64,000 bases of DNA. It comes from Paracyclopina nana (lineage: Eukaryota; Arthropoda; Copepoda; Cyclopoida; Cyclopettidae). The stretch's first letter is position 1, and each line of letters opens with the position of its first letter. The notes under the pieces were generated by a model. It was not told where the DNA came from. It was given only the letters and a program-made list of their open reading frames with translations, and made no database searches. Positions 3,677 to 61,637 of the stretch are shown here, piece after piece. The stretch spans positions 3,804,501 to 3,868,500 of the forward strand of contig JAGUCH010000007.1 in assembly GCA_019096065.1 (NCBI GenBank), written 5' to 3'. The translations under genes were made by a program, and so were the position numbers.

Positions 3677-3740
3677 TTACCTCCCTTGCCAAGTAATTTT
3701 GAGGTCCCAGGCTCGGTCTCTTAGCAGAGATTGGCACCAA

Positions 3741-3758
3741 TCCCGGGTCGCGGCACCA
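3741..3758 (-). other. Primer binding site of the BEL/Pao element
   Basis: On the minus strand, TGGTGCCGCGACCCGGGA follows the LTR end by three bases. TGG pairs with a tRNA CCA tail and the rest looks like the complement of an acceptor stem and T arm. I could not assign the tRNA. Confidence 0.7.
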
Positions 3759-3761
3759 TTT

Positions 3762-4114
3762 TGTTCAAGCAAGAGGTACTTGTCCTTGAAAATGATCAAT
3801 AAACGAGTATCAATAAAGATCTACTTGCCAAGTGTCAACTGTCAAAGTCAATTGCTATAGAATAGCGCGGTAAAATTGGTGGTAGCGTCACAATCGGTAA
3901 AAGCTTGAGCCTTAGCAGGGCTAGACTTGATGAATCAAAGGCCAAAATGAAGGCCCCCCTCGTTGGGGAGCAATGGCGGCCTTCAAGGACGAAAAGAATA
4001 GATCTCTATCGTTCAAAGGTAAAACAGCAAGTGATTTTATTGCGGCAAAAAGGACGCTAGCTCAGCTGCAGCTAGCGCCAGCGCAACAGCGCTACCAGAC
4101 ATGCTGTTGCTACA
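3762..4114 (-). repeat. Presumed 5' LTR of the BEL/Pao element
   Basis: The minus-strand sequence from 4114 to 3762 starts TGTAGCAAC and ends TTGAACA, so it has TG...CA ends. It stands three bases before the primer binding site and contains an AATAAA hexamer near 4035 on the minus strand. The partner LTR is outside the window, so the outer border is inferred from the TG start and could be off by tens of bases. Confidence 0.5.
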
Positions 4115-12878: not shown

Positions 12879-13326
12879 TAAAAAGTACGAGAAAAAGCAT
12901 CTTCCCTGGCTGCCTCCAAAGCAAGCAAGAATCTTAGAAGAAGAAAGCCATATTATGCATACAGACTAGAGACATATTTCTCTCTTTGAATAAGTTTCTT
13001 TCTTTTGTAAGCTACACCATATTGTACTTTGTTTTCGTACGCAATATACACCAAGTTAAGGCGTCAATTATGCGTTTGAGAGAATAATGCTTGTAACATG
13101 ATTCGGACCGTAGAAGGTATAAGGGACATCATTAATGATGGAATTGGCCGCGTTGTTGCCCACGTAGTGGAGCCGGCTAGCACCTTTTTGCTTCTACCTG
13201 GCCGGGCTTGTACGTTGCAAGCTTCGGATTGGTGCAATACCTGGCATAATCCGAGAAATGACTCCTCGCAGCTAGCAGCAGCCGCTGAAAGCAAGCTGAA
13301 AACATGAGGAGCTGAAAAACCACATT
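12879..13326. other. Intergenic, probable promoter/5' UTR of the Methuselah-like gene
   Basis: The LIM stop is followed by AATAAAAAG at once, a likely poly(A) signal. The rest contains no gene I can support; a short open frame at 13098-13307 has no recognisable feature. Confidence 0.4.
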
Positions 13327-15578
13327 ATGAGGAGCAAAGACCTCGCGTTTTTCGCCACCATTTTGGCCCTCACGGCCTTTGAGGCCATTCTAGGCCAGGA
13401 GCAGAGCAACGAGACCGAAAGTGTGACAGTCTCGAAATGCTGCCAAGTGGACGAGATTTTGGTGGAGACGAGCATCACTACGAGAGTGTGCCGAAAACGC
13501 ACCGAGCTCCTGCACATTGACCTCCGCATGGCGAGGTCGAAATGGGAGCCGGCCTTTTACGAGGACGGCCGGGAGGTGATCGGGCCTCGCACCACGATTG
13601 TGGTGCAAGTGGGCATTCCCTCGTGCGATTACAAGGGCGGAGACATCATTTTCTCAGCAACTTCCAGCCGCAAATCTGACAACGAGCTCATGCTCCAGTC
13701 CAACGGGTCGATGAGCCACAGGCTGGTGCACAGTGACACCCTGGCCTCGGAAAAGAGGCTGTACACACCGGACAAGTATTGCATGGACGACCTCATCATC
13801 ACCCATAATTACACGTTATATGGAGACGAGGAGGAGAGCCACGATGACCTCGTCCTGGATTTTGCCTACTTGTGCATCAACACTGACACGGATGTGCAAG
13901 CTCTCATGGATCACTACATCTACCCCATCAGCTTGGCAGTCTCCATGATGTGCTTCATTGTCACCTTCCTCCTCTACTCGTTCTTGCCCCAACTCCGAGA
14001 TCTCACTGGCAAGTTCATCCTGGGCATTTGCTCCTTCCTCACCATCGCCTTCGCGGCCCTGCTGGTGCAAATTTTCGGCTGGAAGGATCCCAACGTGGAG
14101 GAGCTCACCACTGAGCTGGTCCTTCACACCAGCATTGTAGGTGTGTGGTTTTGCCTCAACGCCATGGGGCATCACGTGTGGAAGATCATCAAGTCCAAAT
14201 CAGTGTTTACGCGAGTGACAGACGGGCAAAGGCTGAGATATTACTCGATCTACATATTTCTCGCCACGGGATTCGTCCTCACGTTGGCACTGAGCGTGCA
14301 CTTCTTCATCGAGGAGGGCCAAGGCGTGGGCGAATATGAACTAGGTAAAATATTTGAGCGGAGCGAGCTAGGAGAGCCGCCGCGCAGGCGGCAAAACCCA
14401 GTGTATCCATACAACAAGAACGATTAAACATTATAGTATGGTACAGCTGAGCGCGCGAGCTGGTACGGACCATACTATACTTTTAAGTATAAGTAAGGTG
14501 TCCATACTATACTTAAGTTTAAGTAAGGTGTCCACACTATACTGATTTTCATTGTTGGAACCGGGCTTATGTTATGACAGGTTGAAGTACATTTAAAGGA
14601 GCTTGTCAACTATTTTCCCCACTCGTTCTTGAAAAATGCCAAAAATCATATAAAGCGAGCGAAACCATTTCTGTTATAATCTAAATGCATTGGGTGGAGA
14701 AAAAGCGCCTAAACTAAATCTCTTGATGTAGACATAACAGCTGCCGCTCAAGTAATCTGAGACGATATTGCACAACTCCCTACCTCGGACACCTATCTAA
14801 CAGAAAACTAAAAGATTGACGAAGTTTTTATATCCACGTTTTTCCCTAATTACAGGCTGGAGTGTATTAGCGGCCTTCTATACGCCCGTGGCCTTTGTCA
14901 TCACGTCCAACATGTACTTTTACTGGACATCTCAGCGAAGAATCTCACGACAACTTGTTTACAATCGAAGCATGCAACATTTCCAAGTGAAGTAAGCCCT
15001 CCTCTATCACATTTCCTAGCACGCATAATGAGATGGAAAATTATTATTTCAGCTTCGACTTGTTCACAAAGTTCCTCATCGTCGTTGGAATATGGTGGCT
15101 GTTTCAAACTTTGTCCCTGCTGCAAATCAAGGCACTCAAGTATATAGCCATGGTGTTCAACTTGCTCCAGGGACCTCTCATATTTTGCGTAGCCATGTGC
15201 AGAACTCGCGTGGCTTTCCTCTTCAAAAAGTACTTTTGCGAGGACTGGTGCTGCTTTGGCTGCTTCAGGTCAGAAGAGTTCATCAATGAGGAATGCGAAG
15301 AGCTGGCAACGATTGATTTGCTGAAAAATCGCGACAACAGCGAGTCGCAACGCCGCGACTTTCTCGAACCATTTTTAAATGGACGCCATAATTCCTCCAA
15401 GGACGACAGGGAAATCAGCAAGTCTCTGTTCAACGTGGGAAAACGCGAGCCCGGAGAAATTCCCCCACCGCCAAATCCGGAAATGCCAGTGGGCAAAATT
15501 AAGAGGCTCATCAAGTCCAATTCTTTGACAGCACTCACCAATATTAACATTGGCTGGCGAAAAGAGACTTCTGTCTAG
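13327..15578 (+). CDS. Methuselah-like class B GPCR
   Basis: Exons are 13327-14344, 14856-14991 and 15053-15578, giving 559 residues. Residues 1-23 are a signal peptide. The ectodomain (about 24-195) starts with a CC pair (KCCQVDEILV) and has several Cys and NxT/S sites, as in Methuselah ectodomains. Seven membrane segments follow at about 197-220, 228-250, 262-285, 300-322, 340-362, 385-405 and 412-435. The long Ser/Asn-rich cytoplasmic tail includes a palmitoylation-prone Cys cluster (FCEDWCCFGCF). Introns fall between TM4 and TM5 (phase 1) and between TM5 and TM6 (phase 2). In flies, family members affect stress resistance, lifespan and development; the ligand here cannot be inferred. Confidence 0.9.
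14432..14545. repeat. Short tandem repeat in receptor intron 1
   Basis: Two and a half units of about 38 bp, each with CCATACTATACTT then AAGTAAGGTGT, preceded by an inverted block (TATAGTATGG...CCATACTATA) that can fold into a hairpin. Confidence 0.75.
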
Positions 15579-16919: not shown

Positions 16920-19900
16920 ATGGATCGGTTTCCAACATCAAAAGCAGAAGTTCCCTTTCTAAGTGAGCTTCAATTCTGCTCTAAAGTTCAAGTCGCTCCG
17001 GATTCGAATCGACTCAAAAGAAAGACACCTTCAAAGAGGTCAGAGATCTCTCCGGGACGATTCGCATCCTCACGATCAAGGTATGAAGTAATTAATAGGG
17101 AAAAAGGGTGAAAGCATAAGCAGTAGATTGCATTGTCAAGGATACTTTTTTTGCTGTTCAACATGACGGTCCAGCAGACCTGCTTGCGCTTACTTAGCCT
17201 GGCTGACATTGGAGGGCAACTTGGCACTTGTCCACTTTAGGCCTGACCTACAGTAGCTACATTTACTTCTTTTGACATTGCTCAGGGAGGAGATCAGTGC
17301 TAGTCCAGAATCGGAGATTTTCTTCAATCAAGACCAGCCAGAAGACCTGGAAAGGAAGCCCAGGATGGCATCCTCATCCAGAGCCAGCAACCGGAGTCCG
17401 GATGACTTTGCAGCCTTCACTCAAGGCTACAATAATGGACACCAAAATGGTGACTACTACGAGTACGAGGATGATGATGTGGAAATCGACTACGACCCAC
17501 ACAATGGCTACTCTGACGATATGCCCGGATTGGCTCCATATGCTGCTGAGCCCAAGAAGCAGAAGGTCAAGGCTATGAAAAGTGCCGAAAGGTGAGCCAA
17601 TTTTCGTCAGGATCATTTTCCGATATGGTCATAGCATTTTGTAGCAGGGGCAGAGATCCGATCAAGATTCCAAGGGTGGATCTGAGGAGTAAATTTGCCT
17701 CAATGAACGAGAAAGTTAAGCGAGCAAGGATGCCGTCTCCAGGTGAAATGGTGGACAGCTATCTCAACTCTGGATTTCATAAGCAGTTCAAGCAGCCTTT
17801 GGCAGTCCGGACTCGAGTTGAGGACGTGGATGTGCAACGAGCCCGCCAATTGCTCACTCAAAAAATGACGCCGAGTGAATTGGGCAATTTGAGGCATCCA
17901 TTGGATATCCCCTTGCCCAAGCTTAAGGGCAAAGCCAATCCGGAAACGAGCGAAGCAAAGGCCAAAGCTGAAAGGTGCGCACTTAATTTTTACTCAGCTC
18001 TTTTTAGCATTATACATTTTTAAAAATAGGGAAGTTGAAGAAGTCAAGTTTGATCCTCGAGTTCAAGAGGGCTCTAGGATGTATAATACCCTTCCTCGGT
18101 CCTGGAGGACTCAAAATCTCGTAACGAGTGTTCGTGAAATCTCTGATCTGGAGGAATTGGCTCGAAGAAAGCAACTGATTGAGACGAAGAAACCCGGAGA
18201 GTTGGGAAACATTAATTCCATTTCTGACTTTCCTGTGCCGGCTAAGATCAAAACGTTCATGTCACCCTCTGAAAAGGTGATTGCTGCCCAAAAGAGACAC
18301 AGGTGACCCGAATATAAGCATATTTACTTAGGTTTTGCTTAAAGGAAATGATTTTTAAATAGGTCTCCTGAGAACAAAGAGGAGGGGGAAAATACTCTGA
18401 AAAGATCTTGGACAACCACAAAGCTCCTGACGAATACCAGGGAGATAGATGATCCTCTTGAACTTGCACGAAGGCAAGAGTTGATCCGATCGAAGAGCCC
18501 AGCTGAGCTGGCAGAGATCCGGAGCTTCAATGAAATTCCTGTGCCAACTAAGATTCAAGGATTATTCAGGAGCAATTCAAAGACAGGATCCATTACCAGG
18601 AGTGAAAGCATGCCGAGGAACTTTTCCATGTATGGAACCTTGCCCAAGTCTTGGAAGGAGCAGAATCTTGTGACGCAAGTAAAAGTGGATCAAGATCCGG
18701 ATCTCGTGGCCAAAAGACGAGCCTTGACCCAGGAGAAGACTCCAGCCGAGCTGTCTCAAATCTACTCAATTGCAGATTTGCCCATTCCAACCACACTGGA
18801 GAATTTCTTGAAGTCTCAACGAAACGCTTTGACAACTGATGAAATCGAGCTACCCAGCAAGCCTATTTACAAGTAACACATGCAAAGGTTAATTTTGAAT
18901 CTAGATAATTCACTGGCAACTTTATCAGGATGAACATGGAGGACGTGTACAACACCTTGCCCAAGTCATTGAAGGCTGAAGTCTTGGTCACATCCAAGGT
19001 GATTGAAGATCCTGAGCTCCTTAAAACAAGACAGGAGCTCACTAAGACCAAAACTCCAAGGGAGCTTAGTGCAATCAATGGTTTGGAGGATTTTCCTCTT
19101 CCCACTCGCATAGAGGCCGTGGTTCGTGGGAGTAAAAGAATCCTGAAAAATACGGAAAGTAAAGACCAGCTAGGAAAAAGAAGGTAAACATCGTATTTTG
19201 ACATGACATTAAAATTTCCAATCAAAATTCATCTTTAGCAAAAGTTGGTCGGAGTTGGCCAACATTGATACCTGGAAGAATAGTCTTCCAGAAACGATGA
19301 AAGCTGAGGTTCTGGTACGAACCAGAATTGAAGATCCGGAATTGCAAAAGAGGAGAGCTGAACTGACTAAAAGCTGCACTGTGCAACAATTGTCTCAAAT
19401 CAATTCCTTTGCAGAGTTTCCCATTCCCACTCCAATTGAGAAGATCATTAATAATGCTGCTGAACGAAAGGCAGCCCAGAAGCAGGAAAAAACGTAATTT
19501 GATTAATATGTACTCAATTGGAAATGTTCTTATGAATCTAATTTTCCATAGAGCTGAAGACAGAAATAAGCCTATTGGGGAAAAATTGTACGACACATTA
19601 CCAAGGTCAATGAAATCTGAAGTTTTGGTTCGAGTGCGAGATGAGGATCCGGAATTGCAAAGGCAAAGACAAGAGCTCACCAGGTCCAAGTCACCCGTGG
19701 AATTGAGCAGAATCAGTTCTCTCTCTGAATTTCCTGTTCCAAAGAACATTGAGAATCTCATCAACAAGACCAAAAGTGATGCCACTGATCACGCTAATGA
19801 GCCAACTCCCCCACCAAGAAGATTTCGAAGGGAAGACATCTATGCGACTTTGCCAGCTAGCTTGAAAACCGAGGTTCTCGTCAAAAGCAAAATAGAAACG

Positions 19901-22900
19901 GACGAGGAACTGCTCAAGCAAAGACAGGAGCTCACCAGGTCCAAATCACCAGCTCAATTGAGTGAGATGAGAGGATTTGAGGATTTTCCTATTCCAACTT
20001 TTGTGGAGAATTTGGCAAAGAAGAAAATTACGAGCACCATTGAGGCTCCAAGGTAGATTATCACCAATTAAGTTATTATCCTTGATTAGCCGTAATGATT
20101 GCAGCGAGGATTTGGCAACAATGAAGGGTTGGTATAATACTCTTCCAAGCTCGCTGAAATCCGAGGTTCTGGTGCGAGCTCGTCAAGAAGATCCGGAAAT
20201 CCAAAAGGCTCGCGCTGAAGTCATCAAGACCAAGAGTGTCAACGAGCTCAGCCAAATTGCCACCATCGATGATTTTCCCTTACCAAAATCCATAGACCAA
20301 TTGATAGGTCGCACTCCAAGGCCTGTAGAGCGTAGGAAAAAGTTCAGGCAAATGTAAGTATTGGCATCCTTTGAATGAAAAAAACTCACTGACTTACCAA
20401 TCTTTTTTTTTTTTGAAAGGCAAAGAAGTGAATCTGCCAAGAGCATGCAGGACCGAGTGAGAAATGTCGTGCCCGAGTCCCTCAAAGCTCAAGTGCTTGT
20501 CAAGTCCAGAATTGAAGATGCCCAAGTTCGGGAGCAGCGCAGGCAAATTGTCCAGAGCAAGAGCGTTTCAGAGTTATCTCAAGTGTCTTCATTCTCCGAT
20601 TTTCCCATTCCATCCACAATTGAGCGACTCGTGTCCAAGTCCAAGAGTGAACTCTCTTCTTCCCAGGCTGTGACTGCTCCTCCATTCGATATGTAAAATC
20701 TCATCATGAATTGATTTCAGCCATCAACTGAATGCTTTTTTCACAGCCATAACATCTACGGAACGCTACCAGCCTCACTCAAATCAGAGGTGTTGGTTCG
20801 ATCCAGAATCGAGTCTCCAGACCTGCTTGAGCAGAGGAGACAAGTGACCCAATCCAAGAGTGTCTCTGAGCTGTCTCAAATCCAGAGCTTGGCAGACTTT
20901 CCAATCCCCACCACCATTGAAAAGTTCATCCAGGCGAGAAAGCAGCAGGGCGAAGCTGCTCAAGTTGAACAGGACGAGAACAGGCCACCAATGACTCCGG
21001 CTCGACTCCAAGAAAACATTTATGCCACCTTGCCCAAATCACTGAAATCTGAAGTTCTAGTCCGCACCCGAGTGGAAAGTCCTGACCTGCTCAGGGACAG
21101 ACAAGAGCTCGTGCAGTCCAAGAGCGTGAGTGAACTTTCTCAAATGAAAAGTTTCGCCGACTTTCCTCTGCCCACGTCCATTGAGCACCTGATCCAAAAG
21201 ACTCCAAGCTTGAAAGTACCCAAAATTGGAGGCAATTCAGGAGAGAGTGAAATCTACGAGTCGTAAGTCTCGCCAATTTTTATCAATTGAGCAACTGAAT
21301 CAAATGGCATTTTCAGGCCTTCATCTGCTTCTGCGAGTGGATACAACATCTATGCTTCACTGCCAAGGTCCCTCAAAAAGGAAGTTCTGGTGAGGTCGAA
21401 AGTTGAAGAAAACGAGCAAGTCCTGCGAGAAAGACAGATCATCGTCAATTCAAAGTCCCCTGGTGAACTCAGCCAGATTCACTCATTTGCTGAAGTTCCC
21501 TTGCCACGGAAAATTGAGGATTGGCTGCATCAGAATGAAGCTGGTGAATCAAGGTAATTTTGGGGGAAAATACCCAAAATGAGCTCATTTATGTAATATT
21601 TTCCAACAAGTTGATTGCTAGGGAATAATACTAACCTTTGAAAAATTGTAATGAAACCAATTTCGGGCATGGCATTTAATTAATGATCAACCTATCAAAC
21701 TCACCAGAAAAAATTGAGATTTTTACCAAGAACGCAATGAAATCAGCCAAATCCTACCGACAGTCTCTGATTTACAATTAATGCCCATCTGCCCGAAAGC
21801 AATGAGCGACGCAAGCCCCCAAAAAACCAAAAAAACGATGAGAAAAAGCTTTTAGCAAAATTGAGCCTACCTTAGTAAAGCGTCCGTAGAATGATGAATT
21901 ATGCTCATGCACTTTCGCAACAATTTCACTTGATAGGCGATGACTAGAGAAAATTCACTAAATCACATTTGCCGTGAATGTCTGTGTGACGCACACAGCA
22001 CAGTTTCAGCTTTCAACTGATTTTTTCGGCTCAACTACAACTCGTTGAAGAAGTAGCTGCTGAGAAAAGTGAGAGCTGAGATCAGATCAGAATTGGTGAT
22101 GGAACGAGCCGGAAATTTTCAGCTTGATCAAGCTTCAAGCTTTTTGAAAAGTGTTCGAGCGATCCCAAGATTTTGAAAATTATTTTCAAGCTTTTCAAGC
22201 TCAAAATTTCACATTTCAAGCTTTTTTCAAGCTTTTCACTTTTTTAGAATTCTAACATAAAAAATGGCGATTAGTCACCAGATTTGACAAAATTACCCAA
22301 AAAGCGCAAATAATGACAGATATAGCTTTAACTTAGATTTAAATTCTCCCTCAAGTATTAGTTAATTTTAAAATCAGCCCTTTTTGTTTTCATTAAAAAT
22401 GGATTAAGTTTTTTTTGGGTGTCAAGCTTTTTCAAGCTTTGCATTTTTGGGTTTCAAGCTTTTTCAAGCTTTTCAAAATTTGGTTCGAGCGATCCCAAGC
22501 TTTTTGCTTATGTAGCTCAAGCTGGGTTTCAGCTTCAAGCTTTCAAGCCAAGCTGAAACTCGTTCCATCACTAGATCAGATTTTCCCCCAAAATGGCCAC
22601 GTTTAGCTATCTCAGAAAAATGACTCAAAATAGCAACAAATTGACGAAAAATAGTATAAGCCAAAGGCGTGAAGTCACATGATTCGCAACGCCATCTAGC
22701 CCGGCATTTTTGCCCAGTACACATTTGACATGGCTGCACTACATAGGTGATCACAAATGGGCTATTTTTCGGCTTTTGGTGCACCAATGCAAAAACTTCA
22801 TTAATATGACATTATCTACAGATAAAATGGCACCTTTTCAAGCTATAAAACCATATGCAACTCACGCAAATTTCCAAGCTTTTCATTGTTGAAACCCAAT

Positions 22901-23174
22901 TTTTCTGGCCTGGCTCCGCCGATTAGCCAATCAAATTGCCGCTCGTCGTCACGTGACAAGTTTCGCGTGCGACAGTATTTCGAATTTACTTGCTCAAAAA
23001 GCGCCATCTAGCGAAAAAGTTTCTCCCTCCAATGGCTTATTGTATAGTAAAAATTGTATGTTTAGGACAATAATATCTATTTATATATGTAAAGAATTTA
23101 TATAACAAGCTAATAAAATAGCTGAGCAAATTTTGTTACTTTTCAAAATGAGCTCTGATATTTTGTAAGCATGT

Positions 23175-23267
<93 letters not shown>

Positions 23268-26200
23268 GATGGAAAGTAATTTTCAAATGTTAATGAAGTT
23301 ACCAGACCAGGCAATCTCGACTTAGCATCTGATCCATTACTTTGAAGGCTAGGGTTGAGAGACCCTCAGTAGGGCAAGAGTAGTTGAAAGTGTTAATTAA
23401 TCAATTTTATATACTGTAATACGATTTCCTCGTGTTATAATTCAGTTTACCGATCCGACTCAGCTCTTTTATGTCACATTTCTTTCTAAGCAATTTGGGG
23501 GATATTATAGTTATTTATTTCGAGCTGGGGCACGTAAAGTAGGGTCATTAAATAGCTGAGCGAGGATTTTAAAATGGGAAAACTCGAGTACAGCTTTACT
23601 AGCCCGAGCCTGCGAGGGCTGTAATTGTACGAGTGTTTTTCCATTTTTAAATCCGAGGTCAGCTATTTAATGACCCAATTTTACGTGCCCCAGCTCGGAA
23701 TATACAATTTTATATTCTGTAATACGATTTTTGAGTGTTTTAATGAAGTTACCGGGCTGCCCCGTGCCCTAGAAAATACTGCTCGGTTTTTAGTTGCTAT
23801 GTGAATATCACTGGCTCTCATTAGCTAGCATCCAGTGGGTTGGGAGCAATTAAATAGACTTTCAAAATCCATTTCTTCAGATGTGTTCCTATGGCACAAT
23901 GGTTAGAGCGCTAGGCTCTTGATTCAGGAGTCTAGGGTTCAAACCCCAGTCATTCCTCAACTAACTTTTTTTCTTTATCTGGCTAAAATTATGGTTAAAG
24001 TCCTATACATAGCATGCAATTATCATGATGTTTCCATAGCTCAGTGGTTAGAGCATTGGAATGCTGATCCAACTGTCTGAGGTTCGAATCTGGATGACCC
24101 TCTCTTTTTTCTAACTTCTTTGGAATTTGGATTAGTTCCATGGAATATGAGGGGCATTATTAGTTATTTATTTCGAGCTGGGGCACGTAAAGTAGGGTCA
24201 TTAAATAGCTGAGCGAGGATTTTAAAATGGGAAAACTCGAGTACAGCTTTACTAGCCCGAGCCTGCGAGGGCTGTAATTGTACGAGTGTTTTTCCATTTT
24301 AAAATCCGAGGTCAGCTATTTAATGACCCTACTTTACGTGCCCCAGCTCAAAATATACAATTTTATATTCTGTAATACGATTTTTGAGTGTTTTAATGAA
24401 GTTACCGGGCTGCCCTGTGCCCTAGAAAATACTGCTCGGTTTTTAGTTGCTATGTGAATGTCACTGGCTCTCATGAGCTAGCATCTCGTGGTTTGGGAGC
24501 AATAAAATAGACTTTTAAGATTCATTTTTGCAGAGGTGCTCCTATGGCACAATGGTTAGAGCGCTTGGCTCTTGATTCAGCAGTCTAGGGTTCAAAACCC
24601 CTGTCATTCCTTCTTAACATTTTCATTTCTTTATCTGGCTTAAGTTATGGTTAAAGTCCTGTACATAGCATCCATTCTTCATGATGTTTCCATAGCTCAG
24701 TGGTTAGAGCATTGGATTGCTAATCCAACTGCCTAAGGTTCAAACCTTGGATGATCCTCTCTTTTTCCAACTTCTTTGGAATTTGAATTAGTTCCATGGA
24801 ATATGAGGGGCATTAAATTGCTTAAAATCCCTCAAATTTGATTCCAGGGCCGTTAAGTATTTAATATCCCCCAAATTGCTTAGAAAGAACTGTGATATAA
24901 AAGAGCTGAGTCGGATCGGTAAACTGAATTATAACACGAGGAAATCGTATTACAGTATATAAAATTACTTAAAATACCTCAAATTTTATTCCAGGGCTGT
25001 TAAGTATTTAATATCCCCCAAATTGCTTAGAAAGAACTGTGATATAAAAGAGCTGAGTCGGATCGGTAAACTGAATTGTAACACAAGGAAATTGTATTAC
25101 AGTATATAAAATACTTAACAGCCCTGGAATCAAATTTGAGGGATTTTAAGCAATTTAATGCCCCTCATATTGCATGGAACTAATCCAAATTCCGAAGAAG
25201 TTGGAAAAAAGAGAGGATCATCCATGGTTTGAACCTTAGACAGTCGGATTAGCAATCCAATGCTCTAACCACTGAGCTATGGAAACATCATGAAGATTGG
25301 ATGCTATGTACAGGACTTTAACCATAACTTAAGCCAGATAAAGAAATAAAAAAAGTTAAGAAGGAATGACTGTGGTTTGAACCCTAGACTGCTGAATCAA
25401 GAGCCAAGCGCTCTAACCGTTGTGCCATAGGAGCACCTCTGCAAAAATGAATCTTAAAAGTCTATTTTATTGCTCCCAAACCACGAGATGCTAGCTCATG
25501 AGAGCCAGTGACATTCACATAGCAACTAAAAACCGAGCAGTATTTTCTAGGGCACGGGGCAGCCCGGTAACTTCATTAAAACACTCAAAAATCGTATTAC
25601 AGAATATAAAATTGTATATTTTGAGCTAGGGCACGTAAAGTAGGGTCATTAAATAGCTGACCTCGGATTTTAAAATGGAAAAACACTCGTACAACTACAG
25701 CCCTTGCAGGCTCGGGCTAGTAAAGCTGTACTCGAGTTTTTCCATTTTAAAATCCTCGCTCAGCTATTTAATGACCCTACTTTACGTGCCCCAGCTCGAA
25801 ATAAATAACTAAAAAATTGTGCATTTTGAATTTGGCACTTTTTGGAGCTAAAAGATGTTATGAAAATTAAGTTTTGTCTGGTATCTCTAGACTCTACACT
25901 TCTACTAAGCTTAGCTCAGCTAGAAGAAGAATAAAAAGGAATTCTAACAACAACTTTTCTAACTGCATTAGTAGCTCAGTCAATAGAGCGCTTGATTCCT
26001 AATCTTAATGTTCAGGGTTTGATCCCCATTCAAGGCATTTTTTCTCCTTTTTTCTGCAATGGGATTTACTTCTTGGACAATATCATGGTCTCTGGTCAAA
26101 AAGAGGAGCAACACACCTTATGAAATACTTTATAATGTGTGTCACTTTAAAAAGTAAAACGTCAAAGCTTTTATACGTATATGTGTAGTTATATGAACTG

Positions 26201-29200
26201 AAACGAATTGGTAAACTGAATTATACATGCGAAAATTGCTTTCCATCATATAATAATTATATATAATCAAAATTTGAAATACTTTTTGTTATCGTTGTGG
26301 ATTAAATCAAGGATTCCCATCTTTTTTTGGTGGCAAAAGATAAAGAAAGTCAGCCATTTTGATGATTTTTGAGCGTTTATTGAGTAAAAGTATCAAATTT
26401 TCGGGCTTTTCAAAAATAGCCGCAATACTTCCGTAGCCTCACACATGTCAAAAATAGCCACTTTGGCTATAAATACCCACATCTGGTTACACTTTCACGC
26501 GATTTTATGCACCTTGTCTTGATGCTTTACGGTTTAAAACCCTCAATTAAAGCAAATCAAGACCACGAATTTGGCTGGCTATGGCTGCATATTTTAACAC
26601 TTTCATCACGAATTTCACTAGGAAAAATCCGCATTTACGTCAGAAAAAGCAATTTAAAATCAAATATGGGTTATTTCCCTATAAGTTTATAAAAATAACT
26701 CCTGACAAGATTTTCATTTTGCAATTGCCATAATTATGATGTGGTTTTTTTCCCCAGGTCTTTGAGTGGACGCAGCTCCTCCATACCAAGAAACAAGCAG
26801 GAGCTGAAGGAAATTGTGTACAACAAGTTCCTGCCAGAGTCCCTGACCAGGCCTGTGGTTGTAAGATGCAAAACCGAGGATCCAGACCTGCTCAAAGAAA
26901 GGCAGAATGTTCAGCAGAGCAAATCCATTCACGAGCTGTCCAAAATCCGAAACTTGAACGAATTCCCCTTGCCAGGAAATGTCAAGCTTCCCGATGTGCC
27001 ATTGCCCAGCATGAAAGCCATGATTGGAGTGATTGCAAGAACTCCGAACAAAAACAAAAAAAAAGCCGAAATTCCACCTCTTGAGACGGAAGAAATGCTG
27101 ATTGGCTACTCTCCAGCCTCTACACCGAAAACATTGGATAAAACCTATACTGATGACGAAATGCTGAGGTAACTTTGAAGTTTTTGGTTGAGTTATTTAC
27201 AATAGGCATTCAACAACCGCTAGATGGCATTGTTTTCGTGTAGAAAAATGCCAGACTCTGCACTTTGTAATGAGTCGATTATTGCCCAAAAAAGCCTTAG
27301 AACTGGGATGTCAAGAATTGTTGTGTGCTCATCTGGAAACCACTTTTTTATTCTAATGGCTCACCAATAACTAAAGCGCGGCATGCCCAGAGTTCCTCAA
27401 CACCTCATTGTAACTCTACCTTCATTATACTATATGATATCTTTTTCCTTGTTAATTTTTTTAATGATGGCCACATCTCAAGAGGAATTCCAGCGTAAAT
27501 GTTAACCAGGAAGGAAATACTATTTTTACTCGGTATACTATATTTATTTCTTATTTTAAATCTTCCATATCAAATAACTTTATAGAAAGATTGAACAGGA
27601 GTCCTGAATCCCTAGCTTCTTGTGATGGCTGTTGTTAGAAAGAATGCTACAATCTTACTATTTCAGATATGAAATGAGTTCGCCTGAATCCATGGCCCAT
27701 AGGGATCAAGATTTCGATTATGAAGTCATAGAGGCTGGCAGTACTTCCAACCAATTTGGATTCATGCAGACTCAATTGCCCGTGGAGGAGACCGAAGAAA
27801 GCTCCATCTCTGTGGCAGATCATTACAAAGGAACGCCTCCATTGCGATCAAAAAAGAAGAAGAATCGTTATAGCAACGAAATGTCATCGGAATATCAGGT
27901 ACTAAAAATGACCAACCCACGTTGTGCCTCATGACCTTAACATTATAATTGTTATGTTTGCAAAACCTTAAAAAAGGTAAAATCAGGAGACGAATTACCA
28001 CCACCCATCCCAACCAAAAAAGGCGGCAATAAGCGAAATGTAAGATTTTTCTTCTCCTGAGCATGAATTTTTCGTTTCAATTTTGTCCTTTTTCTGATTT
28101 TCGTTGTGAACTGTCTAGCCTCTGCATGGATTTGATACCAGACAAGAACCACGAGAACTCACAGATCAGGTATAATTTACGAAAGCACGCTTGTAAAGAT
28201 GACACATCACTTTTAAATTGATAAAATACACCAGGACCTTTTGGACTCATCTAACGACGAAATGCTTTTTATGCCTGATTTGGAAAGGCGTGAACATTAC
28301 CCTCCTGGGCCCAAAATTGCGTATTCATACCAGCATGATCCCAAAGTGACACCAATGCGAAAAACCTCCTCAACAATGGTATATACTACTTTGCACTTGC
28401 AGATTGCCCCACCACAAGAATATCTATTTATATATGTAAACAATTTATAAAACAAGCTAATAAAGTAGCTGAGCAAATTTTGTAAAGGAAAAATCGAGTG
28501 GCATTTTTGCGGGCTCGAGCTTGCGAGAGCCAAGTAATGCTACGAGATTTTTACTTTGCAAAATGAGCTCAGATATTTTGTAAGCCTGTTTTATAATTAG
28601 TTTACATATATATACGATTTTATATGATGGAAAGTAATTTTCAAATGTTAATGAAGTTACCAGACCATGCAATCTTGACTTAGCATCTGATCCATTACTT
28701 TGAAGGCTTGGGTTGAGAGGCCCTCAGTAGGGCAAGAGTAGTTGAAAGCGTTAATCAATCAATAAAAAATTGTGCATTTTGAATTTGGCACTTTTTGGAG
28801 CTTAAAGATCTGTTAGATGAAGTTCTGTCTGGTATATCTGATAGAGACTCTACTCATCTACTTATCTTAGCTCTCCTAATAAGCAGAATAAAAAGGCATT
28901 CTAACAGCAATATTTATAACTGTAAAGTAAGCACAGTCAGTATAGCGCCGTATTCCTAATCCTGGGGTACAGGTTTCGATCCCCATGAACGGCATTTTTT
29001 CTCGTTTTTTCTGCAATGGTATTTAATACTTAGAAAATAACATTGTAATTGGAGTGCAACACACCTTATAAAATACTTTATATAGTGTGTCACTTGATAA
29101 AGTTAAACGTCAGAGCTTTTATATATGTGTAGTAATATGAACTGAGACGAATTGGTAAACTGAATTATACATGCGAAAATTGCTTTCCATCATATAAAAT

Positions 29201-29994
29201 ATTGAGAAATTAGATGAATTGAGTCTGCAGAAAAAATCGAGCAATTATTTCATGGCATTAAAAGCTTCCCGAAACAAATCCGCAAGATGGAGCTGATATT
29301 TCTTTTATCAGTAATTTCGTAATAGACGAAACTTTAGTGGCCATTGATTCGTCAAAAATGCCAAAAAGCATAAATAGCCAAGGAATCCACTTCTGGTATT
29401 TTTCACCATTCTGCATTCACAGCCGCCGCGAATAACGCCTGAACTAAATAATTCAGGATATTTTTTAGCCGAGAAAATTGTGGGACAATAAGCATTATTT
29501 AAAAGATTCTGCAGACTCCACTTGTCATCTTGTTGAATTCTGCTACGTTGCAACATGTGGTACATTTACAAGCTTTTTTGGATTGATATGATTTTGGAAG
29601 ATAACTTGACTAATACTTGCTCATACATTAGGTGCCTGATGAGACAAGGCCCCCTGCTGATCACGAAAGGCCGCCATCAAGGCCAAACAGGAGTAGAAGG
29701 AACAGCCAGGATCCTGGAGCAGATCCTGTGGCACCAGGAAGATCTAGCTCAGCTTCTGGAAGAAGACTCTCTGGTAGACTGGCTAAATCCTCTAGTAATA
29801 ATACGATGACTTCCATGGCCACTGATCAATGGCATTCAGTGAGATCCACCAAAAGCACTGCTGATGATGACACTCTGGTCGGATCAGATGATCTTCACTC
29901 TTGCGCAGACACTCTCAATGATCAGCTCAGTGATGAGGAATTTAGCCTTGAGATGCTGCCAAAAGACAGAAATAGCCGATCAAATGTTCATTAG
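16920..29994 (+). CDS. Large protein with 14 copies of an unrecognised ~83-residue repeat
   Basis: Eighteen exons: 16920-17080, 17286-17591, 17648-17974, 18030-18302, 18363-18872, 18929-19183, 19239-19493, 19552-20052, 20105-20353, 20420-20692, 20747-21262, 21317-21553, 26758-27168, 27667-27898, 27977-28039, 28119-28169, 28235-28378, 29632-29994; 1,708 residues. Residues 1-190 are charged, with an Asp/Glu/Tyr-rich stretch. Fourteen repeats lie at about 190-1365. A typical unit reads IYxTLPxSLKSEVLV, then RTRxExPxLLxxR, SKSxxELSQI and SFADFPxPTxIExLI. Exons 5, 8 and 11 hold two repeats each. The C-terminal 340 residues are polar and carry PPPIP and Arg/Ser-rich segments. There is no signal peptide, membrane segment or catalytic motif. 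Each repeat looks like a short linear motif plus an amphipathic helix, which would suit a multivalent scaffold; that is inference. I do not recognise the family. Confidence 0.85.
22120..22560. repeat. AAGCTTTT(C)-rich degenerate repeat tract
   Basis: CAAGCTTTTT and TCAAGCTTTTCAAGC recur many times at irregular spacing. The phrase GTTCGAGCGATCCCAAG occurs twice, near 22153 and 22483, so the tract may have grown by local duplication. Confidence 0.75.
22655..23041 (-). mobile_element. MITE-like element, copy 2 (inverted)
   Basis: Reverse-complement copy of 10911-11285. It starts TATAAGCC and ends GGCTTAT, with the same internal order, including ATTTGATTGGCT and TTGCATATGGTTTTAT on the minus strand. 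Many scattered substitutions and small indels separate the copies, so neither is very recent. Confidence 0.82.
23083..23403 (+). repeat. Foldback module X plus left half of TIR element Y, copy A
   Basis: Module X opens with TATATATGTAAA and closes with its near inverse before an (AT)n run (about 23190-23262). Element Y starts TTATATGATGGAAAG at 23262 and is cut at about 23403, where the palindrome block begins; it resumes near 25808. Copies B and C of the same X+Y arrangement lie at 28419-29199 and 33608-34412. Confidence 0.8.
23190..23262. repeat. (AT)n microsatellite
   Basis: About 70 bases of uninterrupted AT dinucleotides at the point where copies B and C have only a short ATATATATA. Confidence 0.95.
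23515..23705 (+). repeat. Foldback (hairpin) element, copy 1
   Basis: Left end GAGCTGGGGCACGTAAAGT; the right end is its inverse, ACGTGCCCCAGCTC. The arms continue inward (GGGTCATTAAATAGCTGA), leaving a core with GCCCGAGCCTGCGAGGGCT. Copies 2 and 3 are at 24170-24355 and 25617-25803. Confidence 0.88.
23885..24100 (+). repeat. Pair of tRNA-like sequences, copy 1
   Basis: Two tRNA-sized blocks about 70 bp apart (23885-23958 and 24030-24100). Both have an A-box-like stretch (GGCACAATGGTTAGAGC; TAGCTCAGTGGTTAGAGC) and a B-box-like one (GGGTTCAAACCCC; GGTTCGAATCTGG). The acceptor stems do not pair and the first block has no clean 7-base anticodon loop, so I treat them as tRNA-derived repeats and not as working tRNA genes. 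Confidence 0.6.
24170..24355 (+). repeat. Foldback element, copy 2
   Basis: Same ends and core as copy 1 at 23515-23705, with near-perfect arms (CATTTTAAAATCC...GGATTTTAAAATG type pairing inside). It forms the outer part of the left palindrome arm. Confidence 0.88.
24538..24757 (+). repeat. Pair of tRNA-like sequences, copy 2
   Basis: Blocks at 24538-24609 and 24686-24757. In the second, the anticodon arm pairs well (TTGGA...TCCAA) around a TTGCTAA loop, which would read GCT. The short variable loop and unpaired acceptor ends argue against a functional tRNA-Ser. Confidence 0.6.
25213..25434 (-). repeat. Pair of tRNA-like sequences, copy 3 (inverted)
   Basis: Minus-strand counterparts of copy 2, at 25434-25361 and 25286-25213, in the right palindrome arm. 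There are few differences, for example CCGTTGTGCC in place of CCATTGTGCC on the plus strand. Confidence 0.6.
25617..25803 (-). repeat. Foldback element, copy 3 (inverted)
   Basis: Same ends as copies 1 and 2, with the core GCCCTTGCAGGCTCGGGC, in the right palindrome arm. Confidence 0.88.
25808..26253 (+). repeat. Right half of TIR element Y, copy A
   Basis: Matches copies B and C from AAAAATTGTGCATTTTGAA to the terminal CTTTCCATCATATAA, the inverse of the left end TTATATGATGGAAAG. Includes a tRNA-like block at 25969-26036 (GTAGCTCAGTCAATAGAGC and GGGTTTGATCCCC) with a loop resembling an Arg anticodon. Confidence 0.8.
28419..29199 (+). repeat. Foldback module X plus TIR element Y, copy B
   Basis: Lies in intron 17 of the repeat-protein gene. 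X is at about 28430-28613 and Y at 28618-29199, with ends TTTTATATGATGGAAAG and CTTTCCATCATATAAAA. The tRNA-like block near 28922-28995 has decayed further than in copy A. There is no coding capacity. Confidence 0.85.
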
Positions 29995-34800: not shown

Positions 34801-37800
34801 AAATTGCCAAATTATTATTACTTTCAATGATGATTTTGCCGTATTATTTCCCTGCTTTGCTCTCTGTCAAATTGCAAACTGAATAGTTTGGCATTTTCCC
34901 CTACATGGACTTGGAGTCATTGGTCCGTGGTGTCCCATTTCAGTTGTCCCTTATTACTTGGCTGCATGCACGCAATCAACTTCAATGACCATGAATTGCT
35001 GTGCACGATTATCTAAACAAAGCGCATTTTCTCCCGTTTTTGTGCCATTTTCTCTAGCACAGCAATGAATAAAGGCTGCTGCTGCTGCAGTCAATAATTG
35101 AAACGGGAGCAAATAATTTCTCCCTTCCTCTTCTTTGTTGCATTTTGCAATAAACTCATTTGCTCGAGAATTGTTCAATTTGCGAGGAAATCAAATCATC
35201 AAACAAGTTCATTACAATTTTTAAAAGTACTCAAAAACTACACCTTAATTTAAGTTTTCGAATTTTGGACTAAGGCTTCTTTTGCTTGCTATTGTGTTTC
35301 GTCATGCAAGCACTTGCGAAGCAAAAAAAGTGCCTTGAGATAATGCTAACTTTGGCTTGAAAACTATGTCTTTGGCTTCTTTGAGTTCCCTTTGAGAAAT
35401 GATGTTTATGCAGTGAAGTAGTCCTCGGATGTTGCTTCACATGCCTTTTAAAGATTGATGGCATCTGTTAATTCTGCGGTTGAAATTGGCTTCAGTTTTG
35501 GTTTTCGCATTATAGCGACAATTAAATATATATTCGTTCAGCTTTAAGGGCAGATTTGCCATTTTGGATTTTTGCCTGAATTATCTTTAGTTTAAAATTC
35601 ACTTTGCCTTCCTCATTTTGCAACACCTACCAAATACTTTTTTAATTTAAAAGAGCGTTCATTTCCTGTTCATTCGAAAGCCTCGGGAAACTGGGCGAGA
35701 AATTTATTATGAAATAAAGTAAAGGAAATGTTGACAATTTCTATTCAGAGTTTTTCGCTCATAAAAAAGTTAAAATCCATTGTCAACAGATGTATATAGA
35801 TAGCAGACTAGTTTTCAGCAGATTCACTTTACCCAAAGATCAGTTGAGTACGAAGCAAAAAATGATGATGATGAAACATCTGGGTACATTCTTTATCTTA
35901 CATAATTTTGAAAGTACTTTGATCCCATGCAAAATTATTCCTAATGTTTTTAGATTGCCAACTTTTGCACGAAGCTCTATTAATTATGTCTTGCCAATTT
36001 TCTTTGCATTCATTCCGTCATGCTGGATTGTCCAAGCGCGCATGCAAATAGTAATTGTTTGCTGTAGACATTCACCATATGTTGCTACTTCTTGATTGAC
36101 TATTAAATGACATGTGATCAAAACACTGCGGTGAATGTAGGTCATCTCTGCGCTAAACTCTGCGTATCAACTACGAACGGCTGAAAAACTGGAAAAAAAA
36201 CACATCCGTTTTCATTCCCACGATTATGTATGTACTCGAGCATTTTTGGAAAAAGTTTTATTTTCTGCGATTTTGCAAAACGCCACAACGGCTTTTGATG
36301 TTTATTAATTCTTAAGCTAGTGATTTTTGAAGCTGTTCCTTAGTAGAAAATAGTGGTGTTTTTTGTGTGCGTCTAGCGATGATGACTTTAGTCTTTATGA
36401 AATGCTAACCACATTTTCTATCCTTTATAAAATTAAAGGTCTCTGATCTGCCCACGAGCTCTACGCTGCTATAAGAAGTGAAATAATGGCAGCAATATCG
36501 TTAGATAACCAAATATCCTGAGCAAAAAAAAAATCCAGATTATCGTAGCCATTTTTTGAAAAGATAAAACATCTAATTTATTTCATGTTTCATTTTTTAG
36601 CAGGCATTTGAGTTCTTTTGCAGCAGAGAAAGAAAGGGAACGAAGCACGTTCTTACCTTTAAGTATAGCGTAACCTTTTTCCGCTTTACTAGACTTAAGG
36701 TCAAGTCTTGTGGTTGATTTTCAACTCGATGCTTGGCCAATTTCACGCGAGCTGTAGCGTAGTCTGACGTGAGGCGTGGCAGCACGTACAAAATCTGAAA
36801 AAGCCATATTTTTCAATGTCATTTTAGCAGTTCTCGTTGCAATAGTGGGAAAAATCGATGATTCATTACTTTAGGGTGTAGCTTGACAAATCTGCGTCGC
36901 CACTTGCATGTCAGTGAGGTTGTCAGTTCCAAATAGCCTGAAAATATAGCACCACGCCTATTAGCAGTTTAAGCATCAAATGCGGCCTTCATTTCACTAA
37001 AAGATTTTTAGGTTTACTAGCGTAATTTCCACTGAATTAATCTGTTAAAAAGCAGTGGCCCACGTTTTCCCCGAGCATCTCCATTTCTCGGTGAAAGTCA
37101 ACCAGCGAAAATACAAAGATATTGCTGAAACGTCATCACTAGACCATTTCAAATAGTATCTCTTTCCATGGAATTGTTATGTACCTTGGATCATGGCTGG
37201 CTCTTGGGGTAAAGCTATTTTGCCACTGCTGTTACTTTGCTTAGCCACTTCAGAGGACGAGCTCGGTAACTTGACTCTGTACTCCTCTTTTGGCAGCACA
37301 GATGCTGTGGCACTCGGATGCATTTCTGAGTATTGCGGAGACATCATTGGCATAGGCCCTTTGAAGATTGGCGCATGTCTTCGTTGGAAAACATGAGTCA
37401 CTTCTTCCTCGTCTTCAATTACCTCCTCGCCAACTTGTATTGGCTTTGGGCTATTTTCCCTGAAACTGGAAGTAAGCTCATTAGTGGGGCCCAATATGAC
37501 GAGGAATTTGCTACCTTGTGGAAGGCTCGAGTTTGGCTCCAATTATTGGCTCTTCTTGCAGCATATCTTCTTCCTCGTGCATAATTTCCTTGGTCATTTC
37601 ACCCTCGAAGTAAATGGGATTAACGCTAATTTTGGGCAGGTCAACGTACACTGCGGTTGAGTCAAATTCAGGTGAGTGAGGCAATTCATAGTCCTTTGAA
37701 GTAGCGCGAAAAAGCTGCTTCAGTTTCTTCATTGGGGACCTTTTGGAAGGTGGCGACATCTTGACAGCTTCCTCGTGGAGTTTGTCAATCGATTCCGGAG

Positions 37801-40800
37801 TTGGGTCCTCTTCCTCGATATCCAATGACAGGCCAAACTTGACCACCTTGTCAGTGGATTCTGGATCACTTGCCACGCTGTAGAAAGTTGTGTCACTGCT
37901 CTCACTATCCGGCTCGTGGTTTGTCTTAGCAAAACGGCTCAAATCCTCGAGGCTGGATTCAGGGTCGAAAAATTCGTCGTTGTTGATACTGCTTTGATCC
38001 TCCTGTTGCTGTTGCTCCTCATGGTCTTGCACAAGTGTCAGATTTTCCGATTCGTCATCCTCAGCGTCGAATCTGTCATCCTTGGCCTCATTCTCATCTA
38101 GGGACCCTTCGTCTTCCTCGTTTACCTCTGGGGTAGCGTCATGAAAAAAAGATGAATTTCCCACATGGAATTCTGGCTCGTCAATGTCTGTCACAACATG
38201 AGCGCTTGGAATGGAAGTGTTCGCCCTCTTTTGACTTTTGAAACTTTTGGTGAGATCCGCAGACTTGATCCTTTTAATGGATTTGTGTACAGCTCTTGAT
38301 AAAAGGGGCTTTTTCTTCACCTTCTCTTCCTGGGAAGGCTGTCTCCTTAATGACAGGAATGCTGTCTGTACAGGAACCCTGGAGAGTGGCTCGAAAACTT
38401 GTTCTTCTTCTTCTCCTTCTTGTGGCTTTTTCTTATTGCGTCTTGCTGGAGCTTCAGGAGTTGAAGCTTGACGATCAGTGCCCAGAACTGATGACGAATA
38501 AGCTTTGTTATCAGATACACAAATATCCGACTTCTCGATATAATGGTCGAGTGTAAAGGTTGGAGGGGCATAGGTCGAATTGACAAGCTCACTAGAAGAA
38601 GTATTACTATTATGAGTGGGCTTTCTTTTCAAATCTGGCAGGGAGTCAGTCTTGCTTGATCCTAGTCTTAAGCTGTTTGCTCCAGCTTGGCTGATGTCAG
38701 ACAGTGACAAGCTCTTGCTATTTTTCGATCCAACCAGTGGCTTTTTGACTTTGCTTAAGAATTTCAGCTTAATTCCGTCTGTCTTCTTCTTCAGCTTCGT
38801 TGCTGGGTCTTGCTTAGGAGGAGGACATGCAAATTCCACGGGAGCTAGGGCATTGTCACCTGGGAAAACCCTCCGTGATCTGTTCTTTTTCGGCAGAAAG
38901 ATACCCTGCTTGGGTGCGTACAATATTCCAGCCTCAAAGGTTTCTTCCCTACTTGGCTCTGATTGAAACCTAATTTCATCTACAGCCTCGAGTTTTTTCT
39001 CTGAATCTGGAACATGGCTATTAATACTACTTCCATGGCTCTCCGAATCTTCAGAAGATGATGATATTTTACGTGGATCATTTTGAGCAACGTCACGATC
39101 CGAAATGTCGTTGGAAACTTCTTTTGCGTCTCTTTCGAGAGTTTTCCACTTGTTCAATCCGTCTTCTTCGGCTTGTTCATGTGGAGCTCCCAGGTCTTCC
39201 AAAGACTCTTGTTTGGTGCTCTCAATGGAAGTCTCGTTTTGAGAAGGAAACACAAAGTCGTCATCAAATGAGTTGTTCACTCCATCAATTTCATCCGGAG
39301 GAAATCCAAATGGATCGTGGTCGATGAACGGATCGAATATTTGGCAAGCTGGTTCCTCACCACTTTTCTCAAAACTTGCTTGGCACGGAAGAAATTCAAT
39401 TGAATCTAGCTTGACATCAGCTTCTTCCTTGAAAGGATCACTTTGCACCTCGCCACAACAGGAATTCGGATCACTATCCTCAATACACGTTATTTTCTCC
39501 TCGTCTCCAATTACTTCCTTGACGTCATCTGCAAATGGTGGTTGGACCTCGTCGTTTTTTCCTTCAATTACTTCAATTTTCCTTTCAGTGTCGAATGTTG
39601 ACCCTATGAATTTATCGTAAATCAACTCTTCATTTGCAGTCGCTGCAGATTCTTGGGGCTTCACTTCAATGTCATAAACAGCTTTCTCTTTGGAGGCAAA
39701 AAGTGTTTTGAGCCTTTTTAATGAGCCCCCCTTTTGCTGTTGCTCAAATGCTGATGCAGAGCTACTCAGCTGAGGCTGCTCTGAAAAGGATTTAGTGAAA
39801 ATTGAGGAGATTTTCGTGGTTGCTCCAATGGCAACTTTATGTGGTTCAATCAAGTCTGAAGTAGGGTCTTCTTCTTCTTCTTGGTTGGCGTCACTCTTGG
39901 ATGAAGCCTCTGAAGTAAAATTACCAGAAACTTCCACTTCTTCTTCTGGAGGAGCCTCCAAGTGCTGCCATTGCTCAAAAGTTTGCTCCAGGAATTTTTC
40001 TTGCTCGATTCCGGGCTCGAAAGCTAATCTGGAGACTGGCACTGACCCTTCTGTGTGATATTCAAAATTGGCCCTTTTGAAGGTCTCCTGCCCGCTAAAT
40101 TCTTCAGCCTCACTTTCAGACTGTTCAACGCTGAATCGGACTTTTTTCTTCTGCGATTCACTCCTTGCTTGGTCTGATGACCGGCTGAATTTGCGACTCA
40201 GTCGTGTGCCAATGTCTGGGATTTTCGGTGCAATGAGCTCAATGCCCAGAGTCCCACTCGCTGACTTGATTGGATTCTTCTTCTTGCTTTTCCCTGTTTC
40301 CAACGGCTTAATTGGGATTCCGTGCGATTTCAGACTCTGCAACAGATATTATTATGCAACAGAAACTGAATATCCCTAATATATGCATTACATAGCAAAT
40401 TTGCAATTGATGCACTATAGCAAAGGTTTTGGAAATCTGAGTCACTGCAATGGCAATAAAAAACTGTCTACATTGCATAACACAAAGGTTTGCACTGTGT
40501 TTAACCCAATGTGTGTCGGTGAACTTCCTGTCACATCATTATAATAGTTGTAGCATATCTGATGATGCTGCAAACGAGGGGTCGAATCGTATACCTGTTG
40601 CTACCTGCAGGAAGTTATCTCTAGGGTAAATGGTAATGTGAAAAAAATTATCAAAAAACTGAATCTACACAATCATTGAACAACGTTGCCTAGATATACG
40701 TATTTGAAATGTTAATGTAGTTTTCATCATAGGTTACTCCAACATTTTCAGCCTTTAATGAAAGCAATTACAATCTGCATTTCTTATGAATGAGGTAAGA

Positions 40801-57153: not shown

Positions 57154-58028
57154 GGAATAGCTTTCAAAAGTACCAAAGCTTTATTTACTCAAGCTGACAA
57201 TGTTTTATAATTTGAATAATACAATGAGATCAGGTCTTCGGAATTCACTATATCCCTCTGTATCTCTTCTTTTCCGGGTTAATATGACCTTGTCTGTGAC
57301 CAGTACTTGTTCAAGCCTGGCCAAAATCCAATTCGGTGAATTCGGAAGGTGGGTATTTGCCCTTTGCCTAACTCGACAATTTCGGTTATTTCGGCGGGTC
57401 GCCATTAGCACCTTGCCGACGTCTATCACTATTGCCGCCGTTTCCGCCGTTTTTCGGAAAATACTCGATCGGCTTGGATGCAGTGGTGGCAATGTCTTGC
57501 CACTCGTCTTTGCATTGGCTAGATGTTCTGCCTGTAATTACAGAAAATACTTAGCGGGAATATTTGGGATTCAGTTTCCTTTCTTACCCGCCTTGTTGGC
57601 CTCTCTGCTCGATGCCCAAATGAGTGTTGGCCTCTCTGCTCGATGCCCAAACGGGTGGCCACTTCGTCAATTCCGGTGTTGTGGAACTGCCTGTAAACGC
57701 AGAGAATTGAAGTATTAGCGAGGTAATTTTCGGGTTTGATGGTATTTCCCTACGTCTGTACTCCTCGCGTGGCCTCGTGGCACTACTTGCCGGAAGCGGG
57801 TTTATCGCAGCTGACTACTCAGCCTTAGAATTCTCGTCTCGGTGCCAAACGGCTTTCGAGATTCAAAAAGTGGCGGGACTTTTTTGATGGCGTCACCTGA
57901 CGCGTAGCTTTGATCCAGCTTTCGAGAAGCCGGAGCCCGTCAAAAAAGTCCCAAGGGATGCAGCGATTCTAGAAGGTGTCACCTGACACGCAGCCTTATA
58001 TGCAGCTTTTATAATAAGCTACGGCTCA

Positions 58029-60977: not shown

Positions 60978-61637
60978 GGAATAGCTTTCAAAAGTACCAA
61001 AGCTTTATTTACTCAAGCTTACAATGTTTTATAATTTGAATAATACAATGAGATCAGGTCTTCGGAATTCACTATATCCCTCTGTATCTCTTCTTTTCCG
61101 GGTTAATATGACCTTGTCTGTGACCAGTACTTGTTCAAGCCTGGCCAAAATCCAATTCGGTGAATTCGGAAGGTGGGTATTTGCCCTTTGCCTAACTCGA
61201 CAATTTCGGTTATTTCGGCGGGTCGCCATTAGCACCTTGCCGACGTCTATCACTATTGCCGCCGTTTCCGCCGTTTTTCGGAAAATACTCGATCGGCTTG
61301 GATGCAGTGGTGGCAATGTCTTGCCACTCGTCTTTGCATTGGCTAGATGTTCTGCCTGTAATTACAGAAAATACTTAGCGGGAATATTTGGGATTCAGTT
61401 TCCTTTCTTACCCGCCTTGTTGGCCTCTCTGCTCGATGCCCAAATGAGTGTTGGCCTCTCTGCTCGATGCCCAAACGGGTGGCCACTTCGTCAATTCCGG
61501 TGTTGTGGAACTGCCTGTAAACGCAGAGAATTGAAGTATTAGCGAGGTAATTTTCGGGTTTGATGGTATTTCCCTACGTCTGTACTCCTCGCGTGGCCTC
61601 GTGGCACTACTTGCCGGAAGCGGGTTTATCGCAGCTG

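Follow-up and report, generated by a model that had tools for sequence, protein, structure and literature searches.

Fourteen tandem repeat units on symmetric phase-2 exons and a collinear paralog in the copepod Paracyclopina nana

A gene of the cyclopoid copepod Paracyclopina nana raises the question of what kind of protein is built from fourteen copies of one repeat and how such an array came about. The gene lies in a window of 64,000 nucleotides (contig JAGUCH010000007.1, positions 3,804,501 to 3,868,500, assembly GCA_019096065.1, which comprises 92 Mb in 10 contigs); coordinates below are positions in this window unless another contig is named. An initial annotation described, at 17648..27168, fourteen copies of an unrecognised repeat on symmetric exons and considered that it could be a new scaffold repeat. 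As the best reading, we infer that it is one, and that the gene would encode a soluble, multivalent scaffold of ~1,628 residues that is nebulin/titin-like in build and has its own repeat (probability roughly 0.55). A collinear 11-unit paralog of the array gene has now been identified on another contig.

The 14 units are carried by 11 exons, with two units each in exons 3, 6 and 9. Exon 0 is the first coding exon found, exons 1-11 contain the repeats and exon 12 is the next one. Each unit was searched with a profile hidden Markov model (HMM) of the other 13, and all 14 were recovered, with E-values from 5.5e-11 (unit 1) to 3.4e-32 (unit 12), computed with a database size of 1000; the repeat pattern is therefore not a product of chance. 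The annotated number of units, their extent (the bounds are those of the first and last repeat exons) and the three two-repeat exons are borne out. The annotated period of ~83 residues is somewhat short, since unit starts are spaced 79-94 residues apart (mean ~86), with a conserved core of ~60 residues and variable linkers of ~15-30 residues between cores.

Exons 0 to 12 are separated by 12 introns, every one of them in phase 2, and the 4 introns 3' of exon 12 are all in phase 0. The array introns are all located in linkers and leave the 14 unit cores uninterrupted, and the lengths of all 11 repeat exons are divisible by 3. Frame-neutral gain or skipping of these exons, as annotated, holds by arithmetic. 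Phase-2 borders had been claimed for exons 1-13; if these correspond to exons 0-12, the claim is correct for the 12 introns and fails at the 3' border of the last exon, which is in phase 0. The description of the split codons as mostly AG followed by G was an overstatement (4 of 12; AG followed by any base, 7 of 12).

Repeat units in two genes

The first half of each unit contains an IY-x-TLP-x-SLK-x-EVLV segment followed by a helix with an invariant arginine, and the second half contains a Ser/Thr-capped short helix with an invariant leucine, an acidic-phi-P-phi-P turn and a last amphipathic helix. Four core residues, Arg 28, Leu 40, Pro 50 and Pro 52, never vary among the 25 units that the two genes encode, and the [DE]-phi-P-phi-P turn is present in every unit. 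Of the 25 units, 24 have Ser or Thr at core position 36 and all have Glu or Gln at position 39, a pattern which we take to be a helix N-cap.

Structure prediction of one unit and of a tandem pair, as the initial annotation had suggested, gives three short helices per unit. In the AlphaFold model of a single unit these core helices are located at 26-38, 41-45 and 57-65, surrounding the invariant turn, with a predicted local distance difference test score (pLDDT) of up to 88 by block and 72.7 for the whole model, and a predicted template modelling score (pTM) of 0.41. The helix positions are taken from this model in place of an estimate from residue propensities. In the tandem pair (units 11-12), these helices recur in both units, the pLDDT falls below 50 over much of the linker, and the pTM is 0.26. 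The alignments contained 14 and 12 rows for the single unit and the pair, respectively.

The paralog, with 11 units, is encoded on the minus strand of contig C2 (10131.5-10136.6 kb) of the same genome. Three unit searches of the genome, which score the best candidates only, gave 22, 17 and 24 matches, all at the window locus or the C2 locus; a third locus, sought in the genome with the paralog's C-terminal tail and N-terminal exons, was not found. Six of the paralog units share one 542-residue open frame, and three more exons with 1, 2 and 1 units are followed by the last unit, which is interrupted by its own phase-0 intron. This intron is not present in the window gene and is apparently a recent gain. 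The introns before, between and after the unit groups of the paralog are in phase 2 in 5 of 5 cases, read by eye. The two genes also have in common the tail blocks SSPES..YEVI, SVADHYKGTPPL and PPPIP, which the window gene encodes in exons 12-16. The N-terminal exons of the paralog include a long Lys/Glu-rich stretch and are without equivalent in the window gene. One of these exons, 690 residues long (L010, reverse complement, 1874-3943), has a very high content of Lys and Glu, as well as two DGGYEPVG tyrosine motifs that are lacking in the window gene.

An order-preserving match of the 11 paralog units to the 14 window units scores 1678, a value reached by none of 2000 shuffled unit orders (mean 1156, maximum 1506). 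Reciprocal best hits pair eight of the 11 paralog units with a window unit, the exceptions being C05, C06 and C08. In the unit tree, three positional pairs are strongly resolved (those of units 1, 3 and 14; 3 of 22 inner branches are starred), support for the pairs of units 9 and 12 is middling, and unit 13 is paired with C10 on the basis of reciprocal BLAST. A Ka/Ks-style count over 8 partner pairs, C08 among them, gives a synonymous difference (pS) of 0.77 and a nonsynonymous difference (pN) of 0.31, and the mean pS among the window units is also 0.77, which is saturated. The contrast between saturated pS and the lower pN argues for purifying selection. The old paralog suggests that the modules are kept in order by natural selection. 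From the collinear order, and from saturation at synonymous but not at amino-acid sites, the array is judged to have had at least 11 units already before the gene was duplicated.

In the global alignment of the two arrays, units 5 and 8 are skipped, together with one period that starts within unit 10 and ends within unit 11; by this alignment, the size differences between the arrays are whole periods in register, in addition to intron loss. The front segment of paralog unit C08 scores 64 against unit 10, 17 against unit 11 and 24 against unit 12, and its back segment scores 130 against unit 11, 111 against unit 10 and 104 against unit 12, a modest margin with segment borders set by hand. C08 apparently has its front from unit 10 and its back from unit 11, most simply through an in-register deletion in the paralog. 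A join inside the units would explain the absence from the paralog of the intron between units 10 and 11, and this size change apparently arose by recombination inside two units, not at introns. Units 5 and 8 may have been lost in the paralog or gained in the window gene.

Recent growth of the array by exon duplication alone would agree with the phase of the array introns, which is 2 throughout in both genes, but is highly improbable: the units are closer to their positional partners in the paralog than to their neighbours, synonymous sites among the window units are saturated, and C08 apparently combines parts of two units. The first six paralog units lack four introns that the window gene has, and the paralog also has no equivalent of the intron that separates exons 11 and 12 in the window gene. 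Loss of these introns in the paralog is suggested, since repeated phase-2 gain at matching linkers would be less simple. The fusion of some exons proposed in the initial annotation is supported by the paralog, in which the first six units occupy a single exon. Growth by exon duplication, also proposed there, is plausible for the original expansion and apparently fails for at least one later size change, which resembles recombination inside two units; the expansion is not directly visible because it is older than the gene duplication and synonymous sites are saturated. Exon duplication probably built the array first, and unit recombination and intron loss shaped later change.

Comparison with known families

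The repeat is called unrecognised relative to Pfam and the Protein Data Bank (PDB), the catalogues with animal proteins that were searched. In Pfam, no credible model covers the unit in searches with the 14 window units, 4 paralog units and a consensus. A sequence profile search of the PDB with the units gives nothing significant (best E 0.11), and a Foldseek search with the predicted unit structures gives no match better than E 7.8. One unit compared with prokaryote genomes and viral contigs gave 252 and 19 pattern stretches, respectively, of which none was confirmed. The annotated absence of a named domain is upheld in Pfam and the PDB, with one marginal match. DUF668 reaches 25.3 bits in the whole protein against a cut-off of 24, summed from short stretches, the best of which (residues 625-663) covers profile positions 33-69 of 89. 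Among single units, 2 of 14 match DUF668 at E<=1 (best 0.046), and the match is discounted as probable chance.

There is a substantial chance, short of even, that the repeat is a lineage version of a known animal family, which could be an orthogroup labelled "uncharacterized protein" or a named protein of the cytoskeleton or of cell junctions with a repeat outside Pfam. The paralog pair is old by its pS, which makes orthologs in other animals likely, and the animal proteins covered are those of Pfam and the PDB only. The lack of credible Pfam cover in any of the window units, paralog units or consensus speaks against such a family, as does, weakly because motifs are rarely printed as text, the absence of six motif strings from the literature searched.

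It is unlikely that the unit is a degenerate form of a known class of small helical domains or linear motifs, such as the SOCS/Cul5 box, the SAP/LEM helix-extended-loop-helix, RPEL, the EVH1 ligand (FPxPhiP) or a PA28-like helix end, every match being sub-threshold and partial. The SOCS box resembles the unit in its Cul5-box half, where a phi-P-phi-P turn is followed by an amphipathic helix, and Pfam SOCS_box touches one of 14 units at E<=1. The match has 16.7 bits against a cut-off of 23.5 and is confined to the C-terminal half of the profile (positions 22-39 of 39). SOCS boxes carry a BC-box cysteine, which is absent here because there are only 2 Cys in 1,214 array residues; both points speak against this identity. 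PA28 alpha has at the end of its helix 1 a local L-x-x-L...DIPVP string like that of the unit, and the unit profile touches it in the PDB search (E 0.11) over ~33 residues; the likeness is not significant and nothing else of PA28 is present. The Pfam domain PA28_N has E 4.9 in the whole protein and 0.048 in one unit, neither of which is significant, and the fold search does not return PA28.

The core of EVH1 ligands of the ActA/zyxin type is F/L/W/Y-P-x-phi-P. Over the 1,344 residues scanned there is one match, LPDVP, which lies outside the repeat motif in the tail of unit 14, and none at the acidic-phi-P-phi-P of the repeat. The core of the RPEL actin-binding repeat, RPxxxEL, has no match, and RPEL is absent from the Pfam match lists; the PxIxIT motif, sought in the array protein, also has no match. 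A likeness to SAP and LEM was seen by eye. SAP, LEM and HeH are absent from the Pfam lists at E<=10, where the HMMER filters drop most weak matches, and have no fold match, but searches of this kind readily miss matches that are weak and short.

The gene would belong to the tandem-repeat scaffolds on symmetric exons, which are an architecture and not a homologous family: it has many homologous tandem units and one symmetric phase with junctions in linkers, and its repeats may bind and organise partners. Nebulin, titin and Xin scaffolds likewise have many copies of a small module in a long intracellular protein encoded by a multi-exon array, with frame-preserving exon changes and divergence by position, whereas no sequence relation was found, these families being absent from the Pfam match lists. 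In nebulin, according to PMC1553488, exon borders are within domains and duplication is in blocks of seven; all introns of the array, in contrast, are in linkers. Exon junctions in linkers between repeats are described in the same source as enriched for Ig and EGF (PMC1553488). In this respect the junctions of the array gene resemble those of extracellular Ig/EGF arrays spread by exon shuffling. Phase and cysteine content differ: Ig/EGF arrays are typically of phase 1-1 and disulphide-rich, whereas the array gene is of phase 2-2 and poor in Cys.

Exon layout and neighbourhood

The modelled gene contains 17 coding exons from 17365 to a stop codon at 29994 on the plus strand (1,628 codons; 4,887 nt) and extends beyond the array end at 27168. 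Splicing was deduced from reading frame, splice sites and paralog conservation, and the start was set at the first in-frame ATG tried, the same frame being open upstream to 17257. Of the 12 introns from exon 0 to exon 12, ten have lengths of 52-66 bp and the other two measure 5,204 and 498 bp. A decaying or mis-assembled gene, with open frames that are not expressed as modelled, is scarcely credible. Its exon joins are drawn from DNA alone, its 5' end is putative and a large repeat-filled intron separates units 13 and 14, but the model has no stop or frameshift, all 16 introns are GT..AG, and the paralog retains the order of the units and the C-terminal blocks despite saturated synonymous sites.

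Table 1. Exons of the array gene and its large intron (window positions)
Feature	Position	Strand	Content
Exon 0	17365..17591	+	Acidic Tyr-rich N-terminus, phase-2 GT donor; 5' end putative
Exon 1	17648..17974	+	Unit 1 (17742-17933), most divergent unit
Exon 2	18030..18302	+	Unit 2 (18079-18270)
Exon 3	18363..18872	+	Units 3 (18391-18579), 4 (18628-18822)
Exon 4	18929..19183	+	Unit 5 (18945-19136)
Exon 5	19239..19493	+	Unit 6 (19273-19461)
Exon 6	19552..20052	+	Units 7 (19586-19774), 8 (19838-20029)
Exon 7	20105..20353	+	Unit 9 (20130-20318)
Exon 8	20420..20692	+	Unit 10 (20457-20645)
Exon 9	20747..21262	+	Units 11 (20754-20942), 12 (21018-21206); pair used for tandem structure model
Exon 10	21317..21553	+	Unit 13 (21348-21539)
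Intron 10	21554..26757	+	5204 bp, phase 2, between units 13 and 14; high-copy foldback element, tRNA-like stretches
Exon 11	26758..27168	+	Unit 14 (26816-27007), then C-terminal tail begins
Exons 12-16	27667-27898, 27977-28039, 28119-28169, 28235-28378, 29632-29994	+	C-terminal tail, phase-0 introns, stop codon

Intron 10 contains a nested foldback element (23502-25817) with 440-bp arms that are 98% complementary, and three tRNA-like stretches of the element exceed the Rfam tRNA cut-off. Of 623 first-look candidates for a 300-bp piece of it, 40 were scored, and all 40 are near-full-length copies at 98-100% identity; the element belongs to a young, high-copy family.

Several other open frames are present in the window. 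A 1,225-codon frame on the minus strand (2-3676) has Pfam matches to DUF1758 and aspartyl protease and is retroelement-like. The frame at 13300-14424 was considered by eye as a methuselah-like G protein-coupled receptor and has no Pfam match. A 945-codon frame on the minus strand (37514-40348) has no Pfam match at E<=0.001. Two 518-codon frames on the minus strand (55627-57180 and 59451-61004), 3,824 bp apart, have near-identical starts and, with matching neighbour frames, are a local tandem duplication; a Pfam search of the first of them gave no match.

Proposed role

The whole protein has 3 Cys, and its maximum 19-residue hydropathy is 1.0, with no strongly hydrophobic stretch. An intracellular protein fits these values, and the few Cys and the lack of a membrane-like segment suggest that it is soluble and probably cytoplasmic. 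The low pTM values would be consistent with a beads-on-a-string form. In such a multivalent scaffold, each module would most likely bind one molecule of a shared partner or of a set of related ones, and the flexible linkers would make the protein a comb that gathers many partner molecules along one chain, in the way that nebulin, titin or Xin align muscle proteins, with ordinary docking sites added by the proline-rich tail. The symmetric phase-2 exons would allow whole modules to be added, lost or spliced out in frame, and the number of docking sites could change by exon choice; the protein may thus be regulated by splicing. The cytoskeleton or cell cortex as the site of action is a guess by analogy.

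Several points weigh against the scaffold. Confidence in the structure models is moderate (pTM 0.41 and 0.26), and the units may be disordered alone or may pack in a way that the model misses. The value for the tandem pair also depends on a poor alignment with its exon-3 row out of step. The case for multivalent docking is made from architecture and is not a result. Tentatively, and with more doubt than confidence, the two-gene family may contain an undescribed repeat domain in which position-specific, selected docking sites and frame-neutral isoforms that differ in the number and set of their sites together make a tunable molecular ruler or comb.

The four positions that are invariant in all 25 copies of two old paralogs would mark a binding or folding unit that is undescribed in the catalogues searched. 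The gene pair is an unusually readable record of array change, with unit order kept, whole periods apparently lost or gained in register and introns lost. If the gene is expressed, the number of docking sites would be adjustable by splicing of the symmetric exons.

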